A stretch of 64,000 nt of DNA from Cladopsammia gracilis (Eukaryota; Cnidaria; Anthozoa; Scleractinia; Dendrophylliidae): contig JAJGOT010000212.1 of NCBI GenBank assembly GCA_022457155.1, positions 1,118,001-1,182,000 on the forward strand. The letters are read 5' to 3'. This document shows, piece by piece, positions 46,505-63,949 of this stretch. Within the stretch, counting starts at the first letter, position 1; each line of letters begins with the position of its first letter. The translations under genes were made by a program, and so were the position numbers. Below the pieces are notes generated by a model. It was not told where the DNA came from. It made no database searches and saw only the letters and a list, made by a program, of their open reading frames with translations.

Positions 46505-46644
46505 AGGGACTTTGGGGCACTCTGGGTCACTTTTCCATTTTCAGTGTGTTTTATCGTTAAATTAACGTTCATCGTATAATTATAGGCGATTCACCTATAA
46601 TTATTCACTCTAGGGTACTTTTCAAGATCTAGCGTGTTTTGTCG
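46505..46644. repeat. left terminal region of the Polinton
   Basis: Two related blocks (CACTCTGGGTCACTTTTC.. and CACTCTAGGGTACTTTTC.., each followed by GTGTTTTRTCGTTAA) stand about 90 bp apart, separated by a perfect 11-bp stem palindrome ATAATTATAGG/CCTATAATTAT. Expected to be terminal inverted repeat sequence; the partner is not visible. Confidence 0.5.
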
Positions 46645-46968
46645 TTAATTTGGTGATATGCTGTAAGATAAGCTTATTTTGTTTCCATCTTTATCCGTTA
46701 ACTCTTTTCCAGTTCTTAGGTAATGCTGAATTGAACCGATATTCTTGTTCAACAGTTTTGAACATTGATACATACTTTTACATATTATTTTTTCACCTGT
46801 TTGCGAATTTGTTATTTCTACTTTCTTCGCTGTTGACGGTTTGCATACGAGTGTTTCATTGAGATTCAACGCTTTCACCAGTTCCACTTTGCTTAACTTC
46901 ATGTAGTATTTGATTTTCTTTCCAACAGCTATTTCTCTCAATTCTCGAAGAGTCATAAATGATTCCAT
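46645..46968 (-). CDS. small SAP-like/NUMOD-like protein
   Basis: 107 residues. The N-terminus (TLRELREIAVGKKIKYYMKL and SKVELVKAL) resembles SAP/Rho-N helix-extended-helix DNA-binding motifs; PolB of the same element starts with a similar module. The C-terminal half (VEITNSQTGEKIICKSMYQC, SKLLNKNIGSIQHYLRTGK) resembles NUMOD-type DNA-binding repeats of homing endonucleases, with no nuclease domain. It is the outermost gene on this side, 45 bp downstream of the integrase stop and on the same strand, so probably co-transcribed. DNA binding is inferred from similarity seen by eye. Confidence 0.6.
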   Translation of the reverse strand: MESFMTLRELREIAVGKKIKYYMKLSKVELVKALNLNETLVCKPSTAKKVEITNSQTGEKIICKSMYQCSKLLNKNIGSIQHYLRTGKELTDKDGNKISLSYSISPN

Positions 46969-47013: not shown

Positions 47014-48504
47014 TCAGAGTTTTTTCAATTCTTTTAGATCTATCCATTGGTTGAATTTTTCTGGATAACCGCTCCACTTTACTAACGCTTTACCTTTTCG
47101 AGCGTCTCGTCGAATCACTTTCTCAATTCGGTAAACGTCTTGAACACTTGACGAAGTCAATTGCAACTCATCCTTATAAAAAGTACCCTTTATCTCCTCA
47201 CCCAATTCATCCCTTATTTTATAGGTTATAGGGTTTGTGTATTGAATCTTATCGACAACAAAAATCTCTTCAGTCCAGTTTGGAGTGTAACCTTTATCGA
47301 AAACAGGTCGTTTGTATTTTGATATTCGAACTTTATCTCCAATTTTAAACTTCGGTTTATACGTAGCTGTACGTTTGACATTACCATAAAGATTTAAATG
47401 AACATCACTTTCGTTCTTTTTCTTCGATGCTTCCACAGGTGTCATCCCGATACTTCTGTGTTTTGTATTATTATATTCATTTACCAATTTCGGCAACATA
47501 TCATAATATTTTGTATTGTTTTGAATGGTAAATTGTTTCCACATTTTGTTTTTCATCGTACGGTTCCATCTTTCGCAAACACTAGATTTTTCTTCATTCT
47601 CTGTCGAATATAGTTGTATTTTATTTTTATCTAACAGTTCTTTCATATTCTTATTGTAATACTCTTTTCCCTTATCAGTCCACAAAAAATCCGGTTTTCT
47701 TCCTTCCATGAATATTGTTTTGAACGCTTCCGCAACACTCTCTCCCTTTTTATCCTTCAACGGCACAATCCATCCATATTTACTAAAAACATCTAACACC
47801 ATGAGAAGATATCGATATCCCTTATTCCACTTACTAAATTTCTGCATTTCAACAAGGTCAGAACACCATATTTCATCGATTCTGTATACAATAACACGCC
47901 GCCGAGTAAACTTTCGTCTTATAGGCTTATGTAGCTCGTTTGCTAACTTTTCTTGCCAACTCAGCGGCTTTTTGCCGTTTTTTGAAACACCCAGTCCAAG
48001 TTTTTGTTTTATATCTATTACATTTCTAGCTAGCGCATGACCCCATTGTCGTTCCTTATATGGTACGCTATCCAAAGCTTTCACCATTTTTCTATCAGCT
48101 TCATTTTTACATTTTACAGGGTTTGGTTTATTCGAGCAAACAGCATAATCAACGTCATGTCGCATCGCTATAGCATCAGTTTTGCCCGTCGGTTGAATGT
48201 GGACCTTCGTTATTTCGCCTGTTTCTGGATCATACTCGGGCATAGGGTTTCCTGGACCTGTGTAGTTATGTCCTGGTAATGTCCATCCTCCTTTTGGTTT
48301 CGGTAGTTTTAAAATCGCTTTATGAATATCGAAACCGCTTCCCGCCGCTACCTTTATGTTTCGTATTTTCGTTTTTTTACAATTTACACAAGTACACCAA
48401 AAATAAGGTCTTCCATTTTTATTTAACTTATAACCAGATGGTTCAACACATCCAGTCCAGTCGTTTTCTGAACGACAATATATTTTCTGTGTTAGAGGAT
48501 CCAT
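47014..48504 (-). CDS. INT: zinc ribbon-PLA2-integrase-chromodomain fusion protein
   Basis: A single 496-residue frame. Residues 9-45: Cys ribbon (YC...C...NGRPYFWCTCVNC) like DUF5679. Residues 74-172: phospholipase A2-like domain of parvovirus VP1 type, with Ca-loop Y81-TGPGN86, catalytic H116-D117-x-x-Y120 and D137. Residues 188-380: retroviral-type integrase core with D216 (CSDLVEM), D277 (WTDKGKEYYN) and E311 (CERWNR), a D-x33-E spacing. Then an SH3-like KIGDKVRISKYK segment and a C-terminal chromodomain (456-496, YRIEKVI...VKWSGY). Integrase inserts the element; PLA2 domains in parvoviruses act on endosomal membranes during entry. Both in one chain is unusual. The start is the first ATG, 12 bp from the ATPase stop. 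Confidence 0.85.
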   Translation of the reverse strand: MDPLTQKIYCRSENDWTGCVEPSGYKLNKNGRPYFWCTCVNCKKTKIRNIKVAAGSGFDIHKAILKLPKPKGGWTLPGHNYTGPGNPMPEYDPETGEITKVHIQPTGKTDAIAMRHDVDYAVCSNKPNPVKCKNEADRKMVKALDSVPYKERQWGHALARNVIDIKQKLGLGVSKNGKKPLSWQEKLANELHKPIRRKFTRRRVIVYRIDEIWCSDLVEMQKFSKWNKGYRYLLMVLDVFSKYGWIVPLKDKKGESVAEAFKTIFMEGRKPDFLWTDKGKEYYNKNMKELLDKNKIQLYSTENEEKSSVCERWNRTMKNKMWKQFTIQNNTKYYDMLPKLVNEYNNTKHRSIGMTPVEASKKKNESDVHLNLYGNVKRTATYKPKFKIGDKVRISKYKRPVFDKGYTPNWTEEIFVVDKIQYTNPITYKIRDELGEEIKGTFYKDELQLTSSSVQDVYRIEKVIRRDARKGKALVKWSGYPEKFNQWIDLKELKKL

Positions 48505-48516
48505 TCTATTTCTATA

Positions 48517-49152
48517 CTAGATTTTTTCATCGAAATTTTTTGCAACACTCTTCTTTTCCTTATCCAAGAATAGAAATTCATACGGTCCTAATCTTTTGAA
48601 CAGCTCAGGTTCAATCATGTTTTCCTTTCCTATCAGATTACAATGGTTTTTAGTTGTTGGAGTATAAAGTATCATATGTGAACAATTTAGCCTTAGTTTT
48701 TGTGGTGTGTCATAATATGACTGTGTCAAATAGATGGGTGAAATCTGATGATGTCTACCGTCAGTGAAATGGTTCGCTATTTTTGATTGGATGTTTTGAG
48801 GTGCATTAACGAGATCGTCAAAAATAACTATTTTTCTGTTTCCCTCATCGTAATCTGTCGTATCCATTATCTCATCTTGCCCTTTGATTTCTAATATATC
48901 ATAACCAACTTTCTGTGATAGCCCATCCATCATCTTTTTCAAATCCTGTATTTTATCCTGGTGGGGGTTGGGTGTATACAAGTATATCTTATCGTAATAA
49001 ACCAAAGGTTCCCTCAACATATGCATGACGGTATTCGTTTTTCCACTTCCAGATTGTCCTGCTACCAGCATTCGATATTCTTCGTCTAAAAAGTTGTTCA
49101 ATCTTCTCTTCGACTTTTCATTCACATTAGTATCGTAATTTGGAATTTTCAT
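48517..49152 (-). CDS. ATP: A32-like genome packaging ATPase
   Basis: 211 residues. Walker A G32-QSGSGKT39, Walker B KIVIFDD113, followed by a sensor-like IYLTQSYYDTP. This is the FtsK/HerA-type DNA-pumping ATPase family shared by Polintons, virophages and large DNA viruses; it would load the genome into the capsid. Length is normal for the family. It is first in the leftward unit, whose promoter should lie in the 49153-49386 spacer. Confidence 0.9.
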   Translation of the reverse strand: MKIPNYDTNVNEKSKRRLNNFLDEEYRMLVAGQSGSGKTNTVMHMLREPLVYYDKIYLYTPNPHQDKIQDLKKMMDGLSQKVGYDILEIKGQDEIMDTTDYDEGNRKIVIFDDLVNAPQNIQSKIANHFTDGRHHQISPIYLTQSYYDTPQKLRLNCSHMILYTPTTKNHCNLIGKENMIEPELFKRLGPYEFLFLDKEKKSVAKNFDEKI

Positions 49153-49212
49153 ATCTATTTATTATTAACATTTTATTGCAACCGTTTTTATCTTTTTGAA
49201 ATGGTTAAAACG

Positions 49213-49356
49213 ACACTTATCTCAAAAAATAAGTGTCGAATAACACTTATCTCAAAAAATAAGTGTCGAATAACACTTATCTCAAAAAATAAGTGTCGAA
49301 TAACACTTATCTCAAAAAATAAGTGTCGAATAACACTTATCTCAAAAAATAAGTGT
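49213..49356. repeat. five 30-bp palindromic iterons in the divergent promoter spacer
   Basis: Unit ACACTTATCTCAAAAAATAA + GTGTCGAATA, at 49213, 49243, 49273, 49303 and 49333, identical except that the last is incomplete. Each contains the inverted pair ACACTTAT/ATAAGTGT around an A-rich loop. The array lies between the leftward ATPase and the rightward gene at 49387. The unit length is a multiple of three, so both strands stay open; I treat that as incidental. Role may be operator, bidirectional promoter element or replication-related. Confidence 0.85.
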
Positions 49357-49386
49357 TTATTTTGTAACCTAAATGTAAATAGTATT

Positions 49387-51771: not shown

Positions 51772-51796
51772 AAAAATTTTACAAAACAATATATAA

Positions 51797-53119
51797 ATGG
51801 CGTTTAGATCTTCAAAACATTGTGAAAGATATGAGTATGTAACTATCGATTTGCAAACTCCGATTACCACTCCTGCGAATAATCGGTTGCAACACAAAAC
51901 TAACTATAAATTTTCCGTCGATAGTAGCAACGAGAGTTACCCTATGGATTGGTATAATGCCTACTTTGAGCTCGACGTAAAAATTACGAAAATGGATAAT
52001 ACAGATTATGGTGCAAACGACGCCGCTGGAATCATAAACGGTGGGTTTGCATTAATTAATTCCCTCAACGTTAACTTTGATGGTGTGAAAGTCCTTGACA
52101 CATCTTCAATCAATCACGCTATCAATGTCAAAAATCTCACGGATTTTTCGAAGGATTATAGCGATAGAGTAGGTGGATCAATGTTTCACTACCCTGATAC
52201 AGCCACAGGGGCAGTTTTTCAAAAGTACACTACACTTGATCTGGATGGTAACGCGCAACAAATAGCACCGACAGATAACCCTCTGTATAATGAAGGTTTT
52301 GCAAAGAGGAAGGCGCTTCTTAGTGGTGGTGCAACAAATAAAATAATTCTACCGTTGAATCGATTCGGCTTTTTCCAGTCGTTCAAGGACCAGATCAGCC
52401 CTAATGGGAAAGTTAAATTTGAAATCACCCTAGAAAGTGACGATAATGTTCTGTTTAGAGCAGCTGCCGCTGACCCAGGTAGATATATTGTCACCAGATT
52501 TGTTTTGAGGGTTCCTAAAATGACATTGAATCCTAGTGGTGAGCAAATGTTTCTTGAAAAGTATCTCAAACCTCATACATGGTCATACCTCAAGGAGAGT
52601 ATCGAATCCTCACCATTTCAACAGTTGAGCGGTAAATTCAAGATAACAAACCTCATCAGAAAACCCAGGCATGTCTTTGTCTGGGCTCTCAATTCTACAA
52701 AGATTGACGATCAGGAACAAAATATGTTTCTGTTCAATACTTATAATATTGCAAACGCTAGAACGATTACAAAGGCTCGGATAAGTTTGGCCAACGGTAT
52801 ATATTACCCACAGGATATTATGGAGCCAGAGGAAATAACCAGAACATTCAGAGAATTGACAGAGTACAACAAGGGTTTCAATGATCATTTGACAGGTCCT
52901 ACTATTGATTTGAAGTCGTTTCAAGAATTGTATGGAATTTTATATTTCGATTTAAGGCACCAAGAAGAGAAGCTCAAGAACGGGTCCACTAAGTTGGAAC
53001 TTGAATTCACGCTTAGTGGTGTACCTAATGCAGAATTCAACATGTATGCGCTGGTCCTTAACGAGGAAGAGATCAGTGTCGATGTGACGAGCGGAAAAGC
53101 CATCCTCAGAGAAATATAA
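51797..53119 (+). CDS. MCP: major capsid protein (double jelly-roll, hexon-like)
   Basis: 440 residues. N-terminal MAFRSSKHCERYEYVTIDLQ, the tracts SYPMDWYNAYFELDVKI and GGFALINSLNVNFDGVKVLD, and the C-terminal half with FVLRVPKMTLNPSGEQMF and LELEFTLSGV fit the Polinton/adintovirus capsid protein, which forms trimeric pseudo-hexagonal capsomers. Length is typical. TATATAA directly precedes the ATG (51790-51796), giving TAAATG at the start as in poxvirus-type late initiators; a 5' UTR would then be very short. Confidence 0.88.
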   Translation: MAFRSSKHCERYEYVTIDLQTPITTPANNRLQHKTNYKFSVDSSNESYPMDWYNAYFELDVKITKMDNTDYGANDAAGIINGGFALINSLNVNFDGVKVLDTSSINHAINVKNLTDFSKDYSDRVGGSMFHYPDTATGAVFQKYTTLDLDGNAQQIAPTDNPLYNEGFAKRKALLSGGATNKIILPLNRFGFFQSFKDQISPNGKVKFEITLESDDNVLFRAAAADPGRYIVTRFVLRVPKMTLNPSGEQMFLEKYLKPHTWSYLKESIESSPFQQLSGKFKITNLIRKPRHVFVWALNSTKIDDQEQNMFLFNTYNIANARTITKARISLANGIYYPQDIMEPEEITRTFRELTEYNKGFNDHLTGPTIDLKSFQELYGILYFDLRHQEEKLKNGSTKLELEFTLSGVPNAEFNMYALVLNEEEISVDVTSGKAILREI

Positions 53120-53186
53120 ATGTGCATATGAAAATACGTGTATTTTCAAAAAATTATTATATATGGTACATATATAATAATACAAT

Positions 53187-55877: not shown

Positions 55878-56190
55878 TTGAATTATATGTAATTTTATTA
55901 TACGAAGCGTATAATAAATTTTTCATGTTCCATATATGTTCAAAATATCTGAGGTATGAAGAATGTGACGCATGTGAATTTCCGGGGTGCGGCAGGGTGT
56001 TGCAACACGTTCCAGAGCGTTGAATGGTGTGTGAACAATAAGATCCTTATTTACCATATCGTTTATTGTTCTCTATTCATAACAAAGTACGTCACCATAT
56101 ATTGAAAATTACAATATATAAATGCGAACATTTCGCGTTCAACTTCAGTGTTGAGTTGAGAGCAAAACCAAATCAAGAAAGTTCAGAAGA

Positions 56191-56400
56191 AAGAACAGTG
56201 GCCAAGTTGCCGAGCCAGCCACCGCACTGAGAAAGATGAAGAACAGTGGCCAAGTTGCCGAGCCAGCCACCGCGCTGAGAAAGAATCAGAACAGCGGCCA
56301 AGTTGTCGAGCCAGTTGTCGAGCCAGCCACCGCACTGAGAAAGATGAAGAACAGCGGCCAAGTTGTCGAGCCAGCCACCGCGCTGAGAAAGAATCAGAAA
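56191..56400. repeat. tandem 45-60 bp repeat
   Basis: Four copies of a unit containing AACAGYGGCCAAGTTG, CGAGCCAGCCACCGC and CTGAGAAAG. The third has an extra GAGCCAGTTGTC. Copies alternate between AAGATGAAG and AAGAATCAG junctions (period-two higher order). Confidence 0.8.
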
Positions 56401-56520
56401 AAGCTGAAAAACCCGATTAGCTGCGGACTAAGGGGTAGAGCTATGGCTGCGTTCGAGGACGACTTCGAAAGAAGGTTAACTAAGGTTAACGCGGAGTTCG
56501 CAGTGGAAGCGCCGGTTTAG
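56236..56520 (+). CDS. possible repeat peptide ORF
   Basis: 94 codons, GC-richer than its neighbours. Units KNSGQVAEPATALRK and NQNSGQVVEPVVEPATALRK repeat, and one more unit lies upstream in frame without an ATG (56191-56235). The C-terminus (LRGRAMAAFEDDFERRLTKV) is unrelated to the repeat. May be a rapidly evolving protein or just an open tandem repeat; no known family. Confidence 0.35.
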   Translation: MKNSGQVAEPATALRKNQNSGQVVEPVVEPATALRKMKNSGQVVEPATALRKNQKKLKNPISCGLRGRAMAAFEDDFERRLTKVNAEFAVEAPV

Positions 56521-56689
56521 CCTAAAGCTAATCGGAAAAAATCCCAAAAATTGGTGGCGAGGTTATTGGGTAGAGCTTGTCCGTGAAAGCGGCGGAAGTG
56601 CCGGTTTAACCTCAAAGCCTAAAGGGTAAAAAAAATCAAAAAATCAAAAAATCAAAAAACAACAAAAAAGTAGTTATTAATTTAAGGGG

Positions 56690-56896
56690 TGGGTTGATAT
56701 AGAAAAAGCGAGGGCTATATCAATCCACCGGGATATATTATAACTCAAAACCCTCGCGGTTATAATATATCCCTTTCAAATTAAATAAAATAAACTGAGG
56801 AGGGAAAAGGGTGGATTGATATAGAAAAAGCGAGGGCTATATCAATCCACCGGGATATATTATAACTCAAAACCCTCGCGGTTATAATATATCCCG
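56690..56896. other. two tandem copies of a kissing-loop hairpin pair
   Basis: Copy 1: hairpin A 56690-56727, hairpin B 56730-56773. Copy 2: A 56812-56849, B 56851-56896. A has a 13-bp stem (TGGATTGATATAG/CTATATCAATCCA) with loop AAAAAGCGAGGG. B has a 15-16-bp stem (CGGGATATATTATAAC and its complement) with loop TCAAAACCCTCGCG. GCGAGGG in loop A is exactly complementary to CCCTCGC in loop B. In copy 1 one A-stem pair is a G-U wobble. Period about 122 bp. No coding content. Confidence 0.85.
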
Positions 56897-56984
56897 AAAT
56901 TAAAAAATAAACTAAATAAACTGAGGGAAATGGAACAAATAAAGGGAGGGTAAAAAAATAAAAAATAGCCCGGGCTAAAAAAAT

Positions 56985-57320
56985 GAAAGGGGGAGAGGGA
57001 AACGGGAAAGGGTGGGAAAAAATGGGGGTGGGAAAAGGGGGGAGGGAAAAAGGGGTGGGAAAAGGGGGTGGGAAAAGGGGGTGGGAAAAGGGGGGAGGGA
57101 AAAAGGGAGGGAAAAGGGGTGGGAAAAGGGGGTGGGAAAAGGGGGGAGGGAAAAAAGGGAGGGAAAAAGGGGGGAGGGACACCCAGCTCCATTGGGAAGG
57201 GAGGGACACCCAGCTCCATTGGGAAGGGAGGGTAGGGAGGGTAGGGAGGGTAGGGAGGGTAGGGAGGGAGGGTGGAGCTGGGTGTCCCAAGTGGGAGGGT
57301 GGAGCTGGGTGTTCCAAAAA
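56985..57320 (+). repeat. polypurine/G-quadruplex tract framed by inverted 27-bp repeats
   Basis: 56985-57178 is almost pure purine on the plus strand (GGGAAAAGGGGGTGGG-type units). 57221-57273 contains nine or more GGG runs separated by A, TA or AA, a strong G-quadruplex pattern. On its left ACACCCAGCTCC is repeated with 27-bp spacing (57179, 57206); on its right the complement GGAGCTGGGTGT is repeated with the same spacing (57274, 57301). Confidence 0.8.
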
Positions 57321-57366: not shown

Positions 57367-57864
57367 ATGAAACACAAACGGGATATTTTCACGTTCAATC
57401 ATATCGATCCTTCGATCGATGAGGAGAGATTGATAGAGATCAAGGCTCTTTACAGATTTTATCATAAAAAATGGTGGTGTTACAAAAAGACTTATAGGCG
57501 TTTCAAACGGATGAATCTATTCTGTAAAATGAGTAGTTCATTTCTTATCGCAACCGGTACAATCGCAGGCGGAATTACACTAAACCCAGTTACGCTAGGA
57601 GTTGTTGCCGGCGCAGGATTGTTATTGAAAACATACGCCGATTTCAAGAATTATAATCGAAGGATTGAAATGAGTAAACACGCATATACAACGTATCAGA
57701 AAGTATTGATTGACTTGCGTTCTTGTATGCGTGGAAAACATTTCGATCACGATTCGTTTGTGGACGAGATGAGGTTAATCGATGACATGGTTAGTGATCT
57801 TTGTACATGCACGAGCAATGATGACAAGATTGAAGAGAAATATGAGAGAATATTCATAACATAA
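57367..57864 (+). CDS. SLATT-like membrane protein
   Basis: 165 residues. A basic cytosolic stretch (KKWWCYKKTYRRFKRMNLFC) precedes two adjoining hydrophobic segments (about 57-92: SFLIATGTIAGGITL and VTLGVVAGAGLLL). A helical tail follows (MSKHAYTTYQKVLIDLRSCM, DEMRLIDDMVSDLC). The arrangement, two close membrane helices then a helical bundle, recalls SLATT proteins of bacterial nucleotide-signalling conflict systems; the resemblance is by eye. Could act on membranes during virion release or entry. Follows the structured region by 47 bp. Confidence 0.6.
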   Translation: MKHKRDIFTFNHIDPSIDEERLIEIKALYRFYHKKWWCYKKTYRRFKRMNLFCKMSSSFLIATGTIAGGITLNPVTLGVVAGAGLLLKTYADFKNYNRRIEMSKHAYTTYQKVLIDLRSCMRGKHFDHDSFVDEMRLIDDMVSDLCTCTSNDDKIEEKYERIFIT

Positions 57865-57932
57865 CAAATGAATAAATTTCACGTCGAGTTTCGATTCAAG
57901 TTTCATGAATCGAAAACACTGTATACTAAAGT

Positions 57933-58604
57933 TTAATCTTCGTCTTCGCTTTCTTCTATAGGTAACAACGCTTGTCGCTGATTTAGCGGTTTAACAATAG
58001 CGTCGTTAACTTTCACCTGAATTGAAACGGTACTTTCACTGATGTAAATGCTTTCGATTAACAAAGCTAATTTAACTTTACAATACGTGTTAAGATAGTT
58101 GAGTGGATCCTGGTTCTCTCCTTTCGTATGGAATAACGATAAAATTTTATCAGACTTTTCAGAATATAGGAGTTTAGCATATAATACTGGCGCACTTGCT
58201 TCGTCTCTTTTGTTTTTCTTTTTGAAATATAAAAGCTGACTTAATTTATCCGCTATTTCCGAACCATGCGTGTCTTGTAATTGTTCAAAACAAATATCCT
58301 CTAGAAATGTCAAACACTTAAAAAACTCATTTTCTTCTGCTGTCGGTTCTTTGTCTTTCGACCATAAGCAAACCGGAATAGAATAACCGACTAGCTCGTT
58401 AGTTATTTTATCCCGTCTTTCGTTCACTCCAAAACTGAAGAGAAATGGCGATTCGATAACTAGCGGCCCTTTCTTGTTGTTAGGATAATTGGTTTCAATT
58501 TTAATCTTGGTGTATGTCGAAAAAGAGTTTTTCACTCTATGCGAAGTCGGTTTGCAGAAAGTAATATTTTCTTTGCAGATATTTGAAAGACTTGTCAGTT
58601 GCAT
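57933..58604 (-). CDS. DUF2738/CP312R-like protein (putative ssDNA-binding)
   Basis: 223 residues. The core FLFSFGVNERRDKITNELVG then YSIPVCLWSKDKEPTAEEN resembles the (F)SFGVxE...GYSLPxCLW...PT block of the DUF2738 family in nucleocytoplasmic large DNA viruses, whose African swine fever member CP312R is reported to bind single-stranded DNA. Acidic C-terminal tail ESEDED, as common in SSB proteins. A replication partner for PolB would fit the position. Assignment by motif recognition only. Confidence 0.6.
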   Translation of the reverse strand: MQLTSLSNICKENITFCKPTSHRVKNSFSTYTKIKIETNYPNNKKGPLVIESPFLFSFGVNERRDKITNELVGYSIPVCLWSKDKEPTAEENEFFKCLTFLEDICFEQLQDTHGSEIADKLSQLLYFKKKNKRDEASAPVLYAKLLYSEKSDKILSLFHTKGENQDPLNYLNTYCKVKLALLIESIYISESTVSIQVKVNDAIVKPLNQRQALLPIEESEDED

Positions 58605-58702
58605 GTTTGTTATTTAGTAATATTTATTTCTTTAAGACAATTTTTTTCATCTCTCTTTATCATTTTCAACTCACGTTTCACGAGTTGAAATTATAATTAT
58701 AA

Positions 58703-58876: not shown

Positions 58877-58936
58877 TGCTTTTACATATATATATATATA
58901 TATATTTTATTTCTTTTATTTTTTCAACACCGTTGC

Positions 58937-59350: not shown

Positions 59351-59423
59351 CTTTATTATTAATTTAGATATAATTAATTAATTTATTAAATTAATCTATT
59401 TAAATAAATCTATTTATCACATT

Positions 59424-59698: not shown

Positions 59699-62600
59699 AT
59701 GGATTCTTCAAACACACAAAGTGTGAAAGCAAAAACTGTTAAACAGCTATTAGCAATTGCTCGACAGCTTCGCTTAAAAGGTTACTCTGGAAAGAGAAAA
59801 GCGGAGCTGATTAAATTCATTGAAAGTAGCATAAATACTACACCTTCACGAGGTATCGTTACTTTTATAGATGAACCATCACCTCCCCCATCAGCTACAC
59901 ATAGACCATCAAAAGCAGGACCAAAACCTTATCAGATGAAACCCAAACAGACCCGTAGACAGAAAAGAGAAGAGAAAAACTTTGAAGCGCCTTCGGGGGT
60001 TGTTCCGACAGATAATAAGATAAAAGAGAAACAGATCAAGCGGCTCAAGAAAAAACTCCAAAAGGTTAATAAAAAGTTGAAAAATAACAAAAAGCAGAGA
60101 AAACAGCTGTTTTCAAAAAGAGAGCTGCTCAACAACGAGCTTGACACGCTTCGTGTGAAAAGAACAACCTTGTTGGAACATGAAGCTTCGTATGAGATAA
60201 TCAAGATATCTTCAAAGGAAAGTAGAAAGTTCAAATCGTTTTTCGATAAATTCAATGTAAAGATAATAAACCCACGTGCAGCGATGCACGATATCGATAT
60301 CGCAATATTATTGTTAGAGATCGGATCGAAAGTAATAAGAGAGAGAGGGTTACAAAATGGTGATAAGATTCGGTGGATACTTAGCCATCCGAGTTGGCAA
60401 AAACCGGTCAGTACAAAACTGATCACAATCACAGATAACCTTGGGACGGATCTGGTCGAACAGATAGCTAGATTCGTTGAATACAAGGATGTACCGATTA
60501 GTGAAGTTGAGATAGAGATTCAGACGATAATGGTTCCTCGGGGTAAAGGACGATTGCGTGTAACCAAAGACAATGTTTCAAGAAAAAGGTCAGTTATAAC
60601 GATTAAAAACAGTGATAGTATATGTCTTGCCAGAGCAATTGTAACAGCGGTGGCAAATATTAACAAAGATAGATGGACAAGTTCGCAATTGAAAGATGGA
60701 TTCAACAAATCTCGAAAACTGCAGGAAGATGAAGCAAAGAAACTTCATAAAGAAGCTGAAGTTCCAATATCGCTATTTGGGTCTACTCTTGAAGATGTGA
60801 AAAGATTTTCATTTCATATGAAAGTAGAGATTAATATCGTTGATACTGACCAGTTTAATGAGATAATTTTCACAGCCGCTCCTTTTGAAAATGCGAGTAA
60901 GATCTATCTTTTGAAAAATCAAAATCATTACGATGTCATTACAAGTATGCCAGGCTTTCTTTGTAAAGATTATTATTGCCATACATGTAAGAAACCCTAT
61001 GAACATAGAGATAAGCATAGATGTCCGACAAAATGTATCGCTTGTTTCAAATCTTTTCCTGACGGAAAAAAGTGCTCTAAACCACCAATTCCATGCGACA
61101 AGTGTAATAGATCTTTTTTTGGATTAGATTGTTATGAAGAACATAAACGAGACAGATCAAAATGGGGAAAACCCGACATTGTGTGTGAAAATGTAGGAAA
61201 ATGTTTGAAATGCGAGAGAATAATCGTAACTTCAGAAGATAGAGATGGAACGATTCATAACCTAAAGACCCACATATGCGGACATTCAAAATGTTCCAAC
61301 TGCAAAGTTTACTGTGATTTAACAACCCATGAATGTTTTATGAGAAATACACAATGCAAAGGAGGAAAATGTACAGGCTGTACTGAAGAATACGTATGTT
61401 TCTCTTGCCAAACATATACGGAAAACTATATGTTTTTTGACTTGGAATGTGTTCAAGAGACAGGTATTCACGAAGTAAATTTAGCTGTGGTACACGATTT
61501 TAAAGGAAATGAGTGGGTCTTTCACACAATTGAAGAATTCTGCAAGTTTGTGTTTGAGGAGTATGAGGTGGAGGATGAGAAGGGAAAGAAGAAGATGGAG
61601 CAGAAGCATAAAGGATATACCTTCATTGCACATAATTCAAAAGGTTATGATGCTCAGTTTATCTTGAAATGGTGCGTAGAAAATATCGTAAAACCCGATA
61701 TTATATATTCAGGTACAAAAATAATGTCGATGGAGATCAAGTCATTCAAAATAAGATTCATAGATAGTTTGAATTTTGTTCAGAATAGGTTAGCAGCGTT
61801 CCCAAAAACGTTTGGATTGAAAGAGCTGAAAAAAGGTTATTTCCCCCATTATTTCAACAAAAAGTGTCACCAAAACTATGTAGGACCGATTCCAAGCAAG
61901 AAACACTATGGTTATGATCAGATGAAGAAAGATGAAAGAAAAGCTTTTCACGAATGGCACGATGCTCGTGTTAAAGAAAACTATGTTTTTGATTTCCGAA
62001 AAGAGCTTATCGATTATTGTAGGTCTGACGTTGATATTCTTCGAAGATCGATGATGATGTTTCGTGAAGAGTATATCGATCTCGAAAATATCGATCCGCT
62101 TCAATATATCACAATCGCAAGTGTGTGCATGGCAATTTTCAGAGATAATTATTTGGAACCAGGAACAATCGCTGTCGTAAAAGATACCACACGACAGGAA
62201 AATTATTCGAAAATAAGTATCGCATGGTTGGATTATCTATCTGAAAAACACGGAATTAAGATTCAACACGCTCTCAACGGTGGTGAGAAAAAACTTGAGT
62301 GCCTCAAAGGTGCACCACGTGTCGACGGTTTTTGCGAAGCAACAAATACTGTCTATGAATTTCAGGGATGTTTTTGGCACGGTTGCAAGAAATGCTTCGA
62401 TTCAGATACGATAAATACCAAAAATCAGATGGATATGAAAACTCTTCATCGTCGTACGATGGAAAAAAATAATAAGATTATCAATAACGGTTATAATCTT
62501 GTGGAGATCTATGAGTGCGAACTCAAACAAAATACCGAATTTAAATCTTTCATGAAAAGCGATTGGAAACGTGATTTTGTGGAGCCGCTTAACCCCAGAG

Positions 62601-63949
62601 ATGCCTTCTTTGGTGGTCGAACAAATATTACAAAGCTAACCCATGATTTCAAAGAGAATGAATCGGGTGCGTATGCTGATTTTGTCAGCCTGTATCCAAC
62701 AGTTCAATTCTACGAGGAATACCCTATCGGTCATCCTGAAAAGATTTTCAATCCCAAAAGGTTTAATAAAAAATGGTTCGGGTTCATAAAATGTAAAGTG
62801 GTTCCACCTCGAGGGCTTTATCATCCTGTTTTACCGGTAAAAATAAAATGCGATAAGGCTGAAAAGTTGCTGTTTCCTCTTTGTCGAACGTGTGCAGAAA
62901 CAAAACAACAAGAATGTTTACATTTGAACTCTGAAAGATCATTTATTGGAACATGGTGTACAAACGAGATACAAAAAGCGCTTGAAAAGGGATATAAGAT
63001 TGAAAAGATTTATGAGGTTTGGCATTTCAAAGAGACATCTAGCGATCTTTTCAAAGAATATGTTAAAAAGTTCATGAAGATCAAATTGGAAAGCTCTGAA
63101 CTCAAAACCGGTCCTGGATGCAAATACAAGTCAGAAGAGCATTTTAGACAGGTTGTCAAAGAACGTTTGGGAATTGAGTTAGGGAAAATAGAATTTAATC
63201 CTGGAAGGAGGGCAATTGCGAAAATATGTCTGAATAGTCTTTGGGGAAAGTTTGGTCAGCGTAACAACATGAATCAACACAAATATGTAACCGAATCAAA
63301 AGAGTTTTACAAAATTTTGCTCGATGATAACATTGAAAATCTTTTCATTCAGTTCCTCACTGAAGATATGGTGCAGATGACGTATGATTTGAAAGATCAG
63401 TTTGTGGATAATGCAAACAACACCAATATTTTTATTGCCGCATTCACAACAAGTCATGCGCGTCTAAAGTTGTACGATGTTTTGGATACTCTCGGGGAAC
63501 AGGTGCTCGGATTTGATACCGACAGTTGTTGGTATGTACAAAGGCCGGGAGGTAAAACAATTGAAACCGGTGATATGCTTGGTGAGCTAACGGATGAGCT
63601 TGGAGGTGATAAAATTGTTGAGTGGTGCGGTTCTGGCCCAAAATCTTATAGCTATGTGACGTCAAAAGGTAAAATTACTTGTAAAGTAAAAGGTTTCACA
63701 CTAAATCACGAAAACAGTCAATATCTGAATATGAAAGGAATGAAGGAAATCATCAACCGTCAGAAAGAAAGAATCACTCTTGTCAATGAGCAGAAAATCA
63801 CAAGAGATCCAAAAACAAAAGAAGTTTTTAATCAATATCAAGAGAAAGACTTTCGGTTTGTTTATGATAAAAGATGTTTGAATAAAGTTGAAACCGGATT
63901 GGATACACTTCCATATGGTTATACGAATTTAGTGCGTTTTATCGATTAA
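59699..63949 (+). CDS. POLB: protein-primed DNA polymerase B
   Basis: 1416 residues. 13-46: SAP/Rho-N-like helices. 90-165: basic coiled coil. About 300-415: OTU-like region (D306-x-x-C309 in NSDSICLARA, H410 in NQNHYDVI). 426-575: Cys-rich zinc knuckles. 3'-5' exonuclease: D581-x-E583 (FDLEC), N646/D651 (AHNSKGYD), Y773-x3-D777. About 900-950: inserted block EFQGCFWHGCKKC typical of this family. Polymerase motif A D994-FVSLYP, motif B K1175-ICLNSLWG, motif C D1273-TDS. All catalytic residues are present, so it should be active in replicating the element from its termini. The start ATG has a good context (ACCATGG). Confidence 0.92.
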   Translation: MDSSNTQSVKAKTVKQLLAIARQLRLKGYSGKRKAELIKFIESSINTTPSRGIVTFIDEPSPPPSATHRPSKAGPKPYQMKPKQTRRQKREEKNFEAPSGVVPTDNKIKEKQIKRLKKKLQKVNKKLKNNKKQRKQLFSKRELLNNELDTLRVKRTTLLEHEASYEIIKISSKESRKFKSFFDKFNVKIINPRAAMHDIDIAILLLEIGSKVIRERGLQNGDKIRWILSHPSWQKPVSTKLITITDNLGTDLVEQIARFVEYKDVPISEVEIEIQTIMVPRGKGRLRVTKDNVSRKRSVITIKNSDSICLARAIVTAVANINKDRWTSSQLKDGFNKSRKLQEDEAKKLHKEAEVPISLFGSTLEDVKRFSFHMKVEINIVDTDQFNEIIFTAAPFENASKIYLLKNQNHYDVITSMPGFLCKDYYCHTCKKPYEHRDKHRCPTKCIACFKSFPDGKKCSKPPIPCDKCNRSFFGLDCYEEHKRDRSKWGKPDIVCENVGKCLKCERIIVTSEDRDGTIHNLKTHICGHSKCSNCKVYCDLTTHECFMRNTQCKGGKCTGCTEEYVCFSCQTYTENYMFFDLECVQETGIHEVNLAVVHDFKGNEWVFHTIEEFCKFVFEEYEVEDEKGKKKMEQKHKGYTFIAHNSKGYDAQFILKWCVENIVKPDIIYSGTKIMSMEIKSFKIRFIDSLNFVQNRLAAFPKTFGLKELKKGYFPHYFNKKCHQNYVGPIPSKKHYGYDQMKKDERKAFHEWHDARVKENYVFDFRKELIDYCRSDVDILRRSMMMFREEYIDLENIDPLQYITIASVCMAIFRDNYLEPGTIAVVKDTTRQENYSKISIAWLDYLSEKHGIKIQHALNGGEKKLECLKGAPRVDGFCEATNTVYEFQGCFWHGCKKCFDSDTINTKNQMDMKTLHRRTMEKNNKIINNGYNLVEIYECELKQNTEFKSFMKSDWKRDFVEPLNPRDAFFGGRTNITKLTHDFKENESGAYADFVSLYPTVQFYEEYPIGHPEKIFNPKRFNKKWFGFIKCKVVPPRGLYHPVLPVKIKCDKAEKLLFPLCRTCAETKQQECLHLNSERSFIGTWCTNEIQKALEKGYKIEKIYEVWHFKETSSDLFKEYVKKFMKIKLESSELKTGPGCKYKSEEHFRQVVKERLGIELGKIEFNPGRRAIAKICLNSLWGKFGQRNNMNQHKYVTESKEFYKILLDDNIENLFIQFLTEDMVQMTYDLKDQFVDNANNTNIFIAAFTTSHARLKLYDVLDTLGEQVLGFDTDSCWYVQRPGGKTIETGDMLGELTDELGGDKIVEWCGSGPKSYSYVTSKGKITCKVKGFTLNHENSQYLNMKGMKEIINRQKERITLVNEQKITRDPKTKEVFNQYQEKDFRFVYDKRCLNKVETGLDTLPYGYTNLVRFID

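Follow-up and report, generated by a model that had tools for sequence, protein, structure and literature searches.

In the window (the whole stretch of 64,000 nucleotides analysed here), a Polinton carries two copies of an 86-nt module in the gap between its fibre-like gene and a 165-aa open reading frame (ORF). In each copy, two hairpins with 15-bp stems stand side by side and present loops with exactly complementary 7-nt segments. The module is real and non-random, and it is probably a conserved structure of RNA type. Palindromes also follow the stop codons that end gene clusters in the same Polinton. Our preferred reading, which we consider possible but short of probable, is that the module is a 3′-end or stability element of plus-strand RNA, a doubled and kissing-locked variant of the hairpin signals of the Polinton.

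The two modules span 56688-56773 and 56810-56895, and module 2 starts 122 nt past the start of module 1. Each consists of hairpin A followed by hairpin B. In copy 1, the arms of stem A are 56688-56702 and 56715-56729, and those of stem B are 56730-56744 and 56759-56773, with a T.G closing pair possible in addition. In copy 2, an extra C-G pair (56851/56896) is possible, replacing the last pair of stem A. When the T.G pair is counted, both loops are 12 nt long, each beginning with five A-rich nucleotides, which the 7-nt partner follows (AAAAA-GCGAGGG in loop A, CAAAA-CCCTCGC in loop B). The hairpin pairs are thus present where the earlier note had placed them (56688-56896), and the 7-nt loop complement is seen in both copies. 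Comparison of the copies confirms that the whole pair is repeated 122 nt away with one G-U-compatible change in stem A, and the length of 15-16 bp given for stem B agrees with 15 bp plus the possible T.G pair. Two details need correction: stem A has 15 bp, with one G.U in copy 1, rather than 13, and the hairpins abut with 0 nt between them rather than lying two or three bases apart.

Table 1. Coordinates of the hairpin modules, palindromes, putative promoter and genes in the window
Feature	Position	Strand	Remark
Hairpin A, copy 1	56688..56729	+	15-bp stem, one G.U; loop AAAAAGCGAGGG
Hairpin B, copy 1	56730..56773	+	15-bp stem plus T.G; loop CAAAACCCTCGC
Hairpin A, copy 2	56810..56851	+	perfect 15-bp stem; loop as in copy 1
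Hairpin B, copy 2	56852..56895	+	further C-G pair (56851/56896) possible
Kissing partner 1, loop A	56708..56714 (copy 2: 56830-56836)	+	GCGAGGG
Kissing partner 2, loop B	56751..56757 (copy 2: 56873-56879)	+	CCCTCGC
Inter-module spacer	56774..56809	+	first 27 nt alignable with sequence downstream of copy 2
TATA box (TATATAAAT) and initiator-like TTCAGTG, about 30 nt apart	56115..56147	+	pattern match
94-aa orphan ORF with internal repeats	56236..56520	+	open frame
13-bp palindrome after capsid stop	53153..53181	+	second, 9-bp palindrome at 53129-53148
11-bp palindrome, 17 nt past stop of fibre-like gene	55894..55918	+	
10-bp palindrome in convergent gap 57864/57933	57889..57915	.	
9-bp palindrome after 57-aa minus-strand ORF	58664..58690	-	
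9-bp (TA)n palindrome after 137-aa minus-strand ORF	58886..58905	-	low complexity
11-bp palindrome after 107-aa minus-strand ORF	46576..46604	-	
Integrase	47014-48504		Pfam match: rve, E 1.6e-10; Chromo, E 9.2e-06
Packaging ATPase	48517-49152		Pfam match: Pox_A32, E 1.1e-13
PolB	59699-63949		Pfam match: DNA_pol_B_2, E 1.1e-54

The two copies are the product of one tandem duplication, not of independent events, and the earlier argument that such a structure would hardly form by chance twice therefore fails. When the 1,489-nt gap is shuffled 300 times with dinucleotides preserved, a stem of at least 15 bp appears in one shuffle, and hairpins at most 10 nt apart with a loop match of at least 5 nt appear in none. 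When non-overlapping stems of at least 10 bp are considered across the window, six neighbouring hairpin pairs lie at most 40 nt apart, and the loop match exceeds 4 nt in the A/B pair only; the no-overlap filter removed the pair of module copy 2 from this list. Of 200,000 pairs of 12-mers drawn at random from the window, 644 have a match of at least 7 nt, as do 12 of 200,000 trials in which the two loops are shuffled. Counting both strands, the window has five occurrences of the word GCGAGGG, four of them within module loops; the word by itself is not rare, as 5 of 100 whole-window shuffles reach this number. Simple inverted duplication was rejected as an origin of the loop match: an inverted copy predicts a T-rich half, and the two linkers have their A-rich sequence on one strand.

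A single position of the 86 distinguishes the two modules, an A-U pair in one being G.U in the other. By comparison, five of the 27 aligned nucleotides downstream of the modules differ, and the alignment contains a 4-nt gap in addition (Fisher p = 0.003 for module versus spacer, substitutions counted). For the loops alone, the comparison with the spacer is marginal (0/26 versus 5/27 changes, p = 0.051). At the level of sequence, the low divergence of the module suggests either selection on it or conversion confined to it. The single stem change retains pairing on the plus strand (G.U, or G.T in DNA) and fails on the minus strand (A.C). Hairpin A of copy 1 folds at −20.7 kcal/mol in the sense and −15.8 kcal/mol in the antisense orientation, and hairpin A of copy 2 at −21.3 and −20.5 kcal/mol, respectively. 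The plus strand is thus favoured by the stem substitution and by the T.G closing pair, which are two positions only.

Pairing of the two 7-mers amounts to −12.8 kcal/mol, with kissing penalties excluded. The geometry was assessed with a model that treats both stems and the 7-bp loop helix as rigid A-form bodies, with limits on chain length and simple exclusion. With the real linkers, the kiss in cis closes in 8 of 8 runs of this model (four runs for each of two loop settings), leaving a penalty of 0 to 0.01. Closure fails when the linkers are removed (best penalty 38 to 73, 4 of 4 runs), and a penalty of 6 to 10 is left when stem B is extended to 22 bp (4 of 4 runs). With stem B at 8 bp the model closes in all four runs, indicating that equal stem length is unnecessary for the kiss. 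Nothing in this coarse model forbids a kiss within one molecule. When both copies are folded jointly and kissing is left uncounted, pairing between the copies (−90.5 kcal/mol) is preferred to four local hairpins (−81.5 kcal/mol). Two loop helices, each worth about −12.8 kcal/mol before penalties, could overturn this preference. Support for the kissing module proposed in the earlier note comes from the sequence, the energy of pairing, the coarse geometry and the conservation seen when the copies are compared.

The gap of 1.5 kb in which the module had been sited measures 1,489 nt. It is not empty, since it holds a TATA-plus-initiator match and the 94-aa ORF. The match places a putative transcription start near 56147. 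The pattern was written after the site had been noticed; it matches nowhere else in the Polinton part, and over both strands of the window it has three distinct matches in all. None of 39 candidate homologues of the 94-aa ORF reaches E ≤ 1, so the status of this ORF as a gene is unproven; one Pfam match to a BID domain (E 0.12, below the cut-off) is judged a chance match. The module starts 168 nt after the stop of this ORF, and the 165-aa ORF, putatively the membrane protein gene of the earlier note, begins at 57367, past the gap. Predicted folding energies along the gap are −48.3 kcal/mol for 56400-56545, −41.8 and −42.5 kcal/mol for the modules, and −71.7 kcal/mol for 57170-57320. The gap is rich in tandem repeats and its plus strand is purine-rich, with a GC skew of up to 0.64 and an AT skew of up to 0.38.

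The gap contains other repeats. A 19-nt inverted repeat (79% complementary, 56413-56535) extends across the end of the 94-aa ORF, inside the 56400-56545 fold, and the stretch 56589-56615 is partly similar to this region. At 57176-57315, a double inverted repeat with two 16-nt arms per side flanks a TAGGGAGGG tract, which could form a G-quadruplex. An A-run of about 20 follows this repeat.

The Polinton occupies the window from about 46.6 kb to its end. Most of the element is present. The PolB stop is at 63949, close to the last position (64000), and the right end seems to fall outside the window. The rve integrase, the A32-type ATPase, PolB and a capsid protein related to stony-coral proteins bear out the Polinton context. 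The Pfam match of the capsid protein itself is weak (E 0.0063, under the cut-off). PF21738 is present in several of its close homologues, such as P0001 (73% identical), and through these homologues the predicted protein is identified as a double jelly-roll capsid. Among the 120 capsid relatives listed of 667, every one with a named organism comes from a stony coral, Oculina patagonica or Stylophora pistillata. The closest Polintons, represented by their proteins, have capsids 65-73% identical to this one. The fibre-like gene is so labelled from Pfam matches below the cut-off.

Several further features of these genes can be noted. The integrase ORF also has a phospholipase A2-like domain. The N-terminus of the PolB protein is a Rho_N domain, and the 107-aa ORF (46645-46968) resembles this N-terminus by eye. 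A TAAATG at 51794-51799, a word like that of poxvirus late promoters, overlaps the start of the capsid gene, and this overlap is unique to the capsid gene among the gene starts compared and the small ORFs; the TAAAT word in PMC6211774 may be compared. The giant-virus early promoter AAAATTGA is unsupported here: its one occurrence in the Polinton part (minus strand, 58502) falls within the 57933-58604 ORF.

To compare gene ends, the 100 nt after each of 15 stop codons was examined for the longest perfect stem, with 300 shuffles for each. A stop is called cluster-ending when the next same-strand gene is at least 60 nt away or when a convergent gap follows. Under this rule, which was drawn post hoc and in which internal stops have little room for hairpins, a palindrome with a stem of at least 9 bp lies at most 70 nt from the stop at 7 of 7 cluster-ending and 0 of 7 internal stops (Fisher p = 0.0006); in the count of seven, one palindrome is shared by two convergent genes and another is a TA run. 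The longest stems are 9 to 13 bp at the cluster-ending stops (each p 0.003 to 0.010 versus 300 shuffles) and 5 to 7 bp at the internal stops (p 0.25 to 0.91). As background, a stem of 9 is reached in 2.3% of 1,500 random 100-nt draws, both in the first 46.5 kb and in Polinton coding sequence. The fifteenth stop is that of the 94-aa ORF; its longest stem within 100 nt is 5 bp, and the kissing modules lie further downstream. The palindromes at cluster ends start 13 to 41 nt past their stops, versus 168 nt for the module. The PolB stop was considered apart, as 51 nt remain in the window after it, with a longest stem of 6 bp. The two capsid palindromes (9 and 13 bp) are 4 nt apart, and their loops, GT and GTA, have no meaningful complementarity.

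Stems of at least 10 bp between 46,960 and 63,949 number 0 in 14,298 coding nucleotides versus 6 in the remaining 2,692, with small ORFs, the 94-aa ORF included, treated as non-coding. Two of the six are module hairpin B and one is a repeat at 49211; a seventh stem lies just to the left, at 46576. From 46,500 on, stems of at least 9 bp number 3 in coding sequence versus 13 elsewhere. Hairpins are not exclusive to 3′ ends, because divergent, 5′-type gaps also carry them: a repeat array at about 49211-49357 and a 9-bp AT-rich hairpin at 59358-59395. The array (about 49213-49356) consists of 4.8 perfect copies of a 30-bp unit, each a hairpin of the form ACACTTAT-CTCAAAAA-ATAAGTGT. Its location is either the divergent gap beside the ATPase gene or the first part of the 49201 ORF.

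Taken as a doubled and reinforced version of the other cluster-end palindromes, the module may work as follows. A transcript beginning near 56147 would include the 94-aa ORF, and the module would lie in its 3′ untranslated region. Each copy would fold co-transcriptionally into two abutting 15-bp hairpins, side by side. Pairing of GCGAGGG with CCCTCGC would then lock hairpins A and B into one compact body, and this body would help to form or protect the 3′ end. Among the possible roles, RNA stability and 3′-end formation are favoured by the palindromes at cluster-ending stops; replication and packaging are less so.

Searches for relatives of the module gave the following results. No Rfam family reaches the gathering score in the window, and two sub-threshold matches of hairpin B to mir-4803, obtained at a lax cut-off, are judged chance matches. 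The loop A stretch has no exact match in viral contigs. Loop-pattern matches in one viral and one bacterial contig have minimum-energy folds that lack the two-hairpin form, and are likewise attributed to chance. No Polinton relatives are found in viral contigs through the capsid, integrase or polymerase, and no phage record contains this capsid. Among the papers searched, none combines Polintons and kissing loops; hairpin 3′ ends in Polintons may already be reported.

Kissing loops at RNA 3′ ends include the X/Y kiss of the enterovirus 3′ UTR. In HCV, 5BSL3.2-SL2 is a loop-loop pairing of two hairpins close to the RNA 3′ end (PMC7481400), and kissing hairpins are computationally predicted in the 3′ UTR of Senecavirus A (PMC9189406). 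The HCV and picornavirus elements have paired hairpin loops near an RNA 3′ end, as the Polinton module would in its proposed role. However, they belong to RNA genomes and act in replication, whereas the Polinton is a DNA element, and its module has 15-bp stems, 5+7 loops and a duplicated arrangement.

In its hairpin layout, the Polinton looks like Mimivirus, the Marseilleviridae, Sputnik and the yeast linear plasmids. In the Mimiviridae, mRNA is polyadenylated at palindromic hairpins, which a viral RNase III cleaves, and the sequence of the palindromes at Mimivirus transcript ends is not conserved (PMC4402537). In the Marseilleviridae, palindromes are enriched between genes and tied to the upstream stop codon (PMC5413956). 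The Polinton shares with this hairpin rule the concentration of palindromes outside coding sequence. In contrast, both virus groups encode RNase III, and the Mimiviridae also poly(A) polymerase, whereas neither enzyme has a Pfam match among the 16 ORFs scanned in the Polinton part, a set from which the 107-aa, 57-aa and other small ORFs are excluded. A helper or the host could provide both enzymes to the Polinton. The available parts of these two sources say nothing of complementary loops in adjacent hairpins, which the Polinton module has.

In the Sputnik virophage, a hairpin polyadenylation signal ends 16 genes (PMC6723459). Sputnik is a small DNA virus; it is deemed reliant on the machinery of its giant-virus host, whereas the Polinton here has no known helper virus. 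In the yeast linear plasmids (pGKL), stem-loops affect mRNA 3′ ends, as shown by mutation and rescue, and have a median distance of 26 nt from the stop and a median energy of −7.5 kcal/mol (PMC6211774). These plasmids are virus-like elements as well. Unlike the Polinton module, their stems are weaker and kissing loops go unmentioned in the available part of the source; their mRNAs lack poly(A) tails and they have their own RNA polymerase.

Three other explanations of the module were weighed. The stretch may be intergenic debris, repeat-prone sequence in which inverted duplication and tandem copying gave rise to the hairpins and a coincidental loop match has been kept by recent duplication or gene conversion, an explanation that we regard as doubtful yet credible. 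Tandem repeats abound in the gap, 0.3% of random 12-mer pairs from the window show a 7-nt match, and indel-prone A-rich sequence could explain the lower similarity of the spacer. However, the divergence of module versus spacer (p = 0.003) argues against this explanation, as do the 5+7 layout common to both loops, which is not expected of inverted copying, and the absence of matching adjacent hairpins from all 300 shuffles.

The module could instead act as DNA, through cruciforms or through folds in the displaced strand during protein-primed replication, at an origin, packaging or nick site, and the loop match would then pin two cruciform arms together; we judge both the DNA role and the pinning unlikely. 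This Polinton carries PolB, consistent with protein-primed strand displacement. The gap also contains, next to the long palindromes, a G-rich tract and another double inverted repeat. However, the single stem change keeps its pairing on the plus strand only, the closing T.G pair does likewise, and the linkers are A-rich on the plus and T-rich on the minus strand. The pair of cruciforms suggested in the earlier note thus finds no specific support, although the preference for the plus strand comes from two positions in the stems. It is also improbable, in our estimate, that the stretch 56147-57320 encodes a stable non-coding or leader RNA with the kissing modules as protein-binding or dimerisation domains; such an RNA might, with the same reservation, be a decoy, a leader for translation control of the 165-aa ORF, or a dimerisation or packaging RNA. 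Much of the stretch folds at the energies given above, its plus strand is purine-rich, and the module copies could kiss each other in trans. However, the 94-aa open frame lies within the same stretch, and the Rfam search returned no family at gathering score, just the two sub-threshold mir-4803 matches. We keep the 3′-end or stability element as the preferred reading.

To our knowledge, Polinton transcription and mRNA ending have been little studied. What is new here is the position of the module after a 94-aa orphan ORF behind a TATA-plus-initiator match, together with the palindromes at cluster-ending stops. By analogy, this Polinton, and perhaps the Polintons of marine animals generally, might end mRNAs at hairpins like giant viruses and virophages, with the kissing double hairpin as a super-stable version, an extension of our reading that we rate as quite unlikely. 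A kiss within one molecule between two 15-bp hairpins, encoded by a mobile DNA element, would be uncommon among natural RNA architectures. Hairpin-ended Polinton mRNAs would suggest a transcription machinery that is partly like that of giant viruses, rather than that of the host alone, and hairpin 3′ ends would give animal Polintons a functional link with virophages, giant viruses and yeast linear plasmids.
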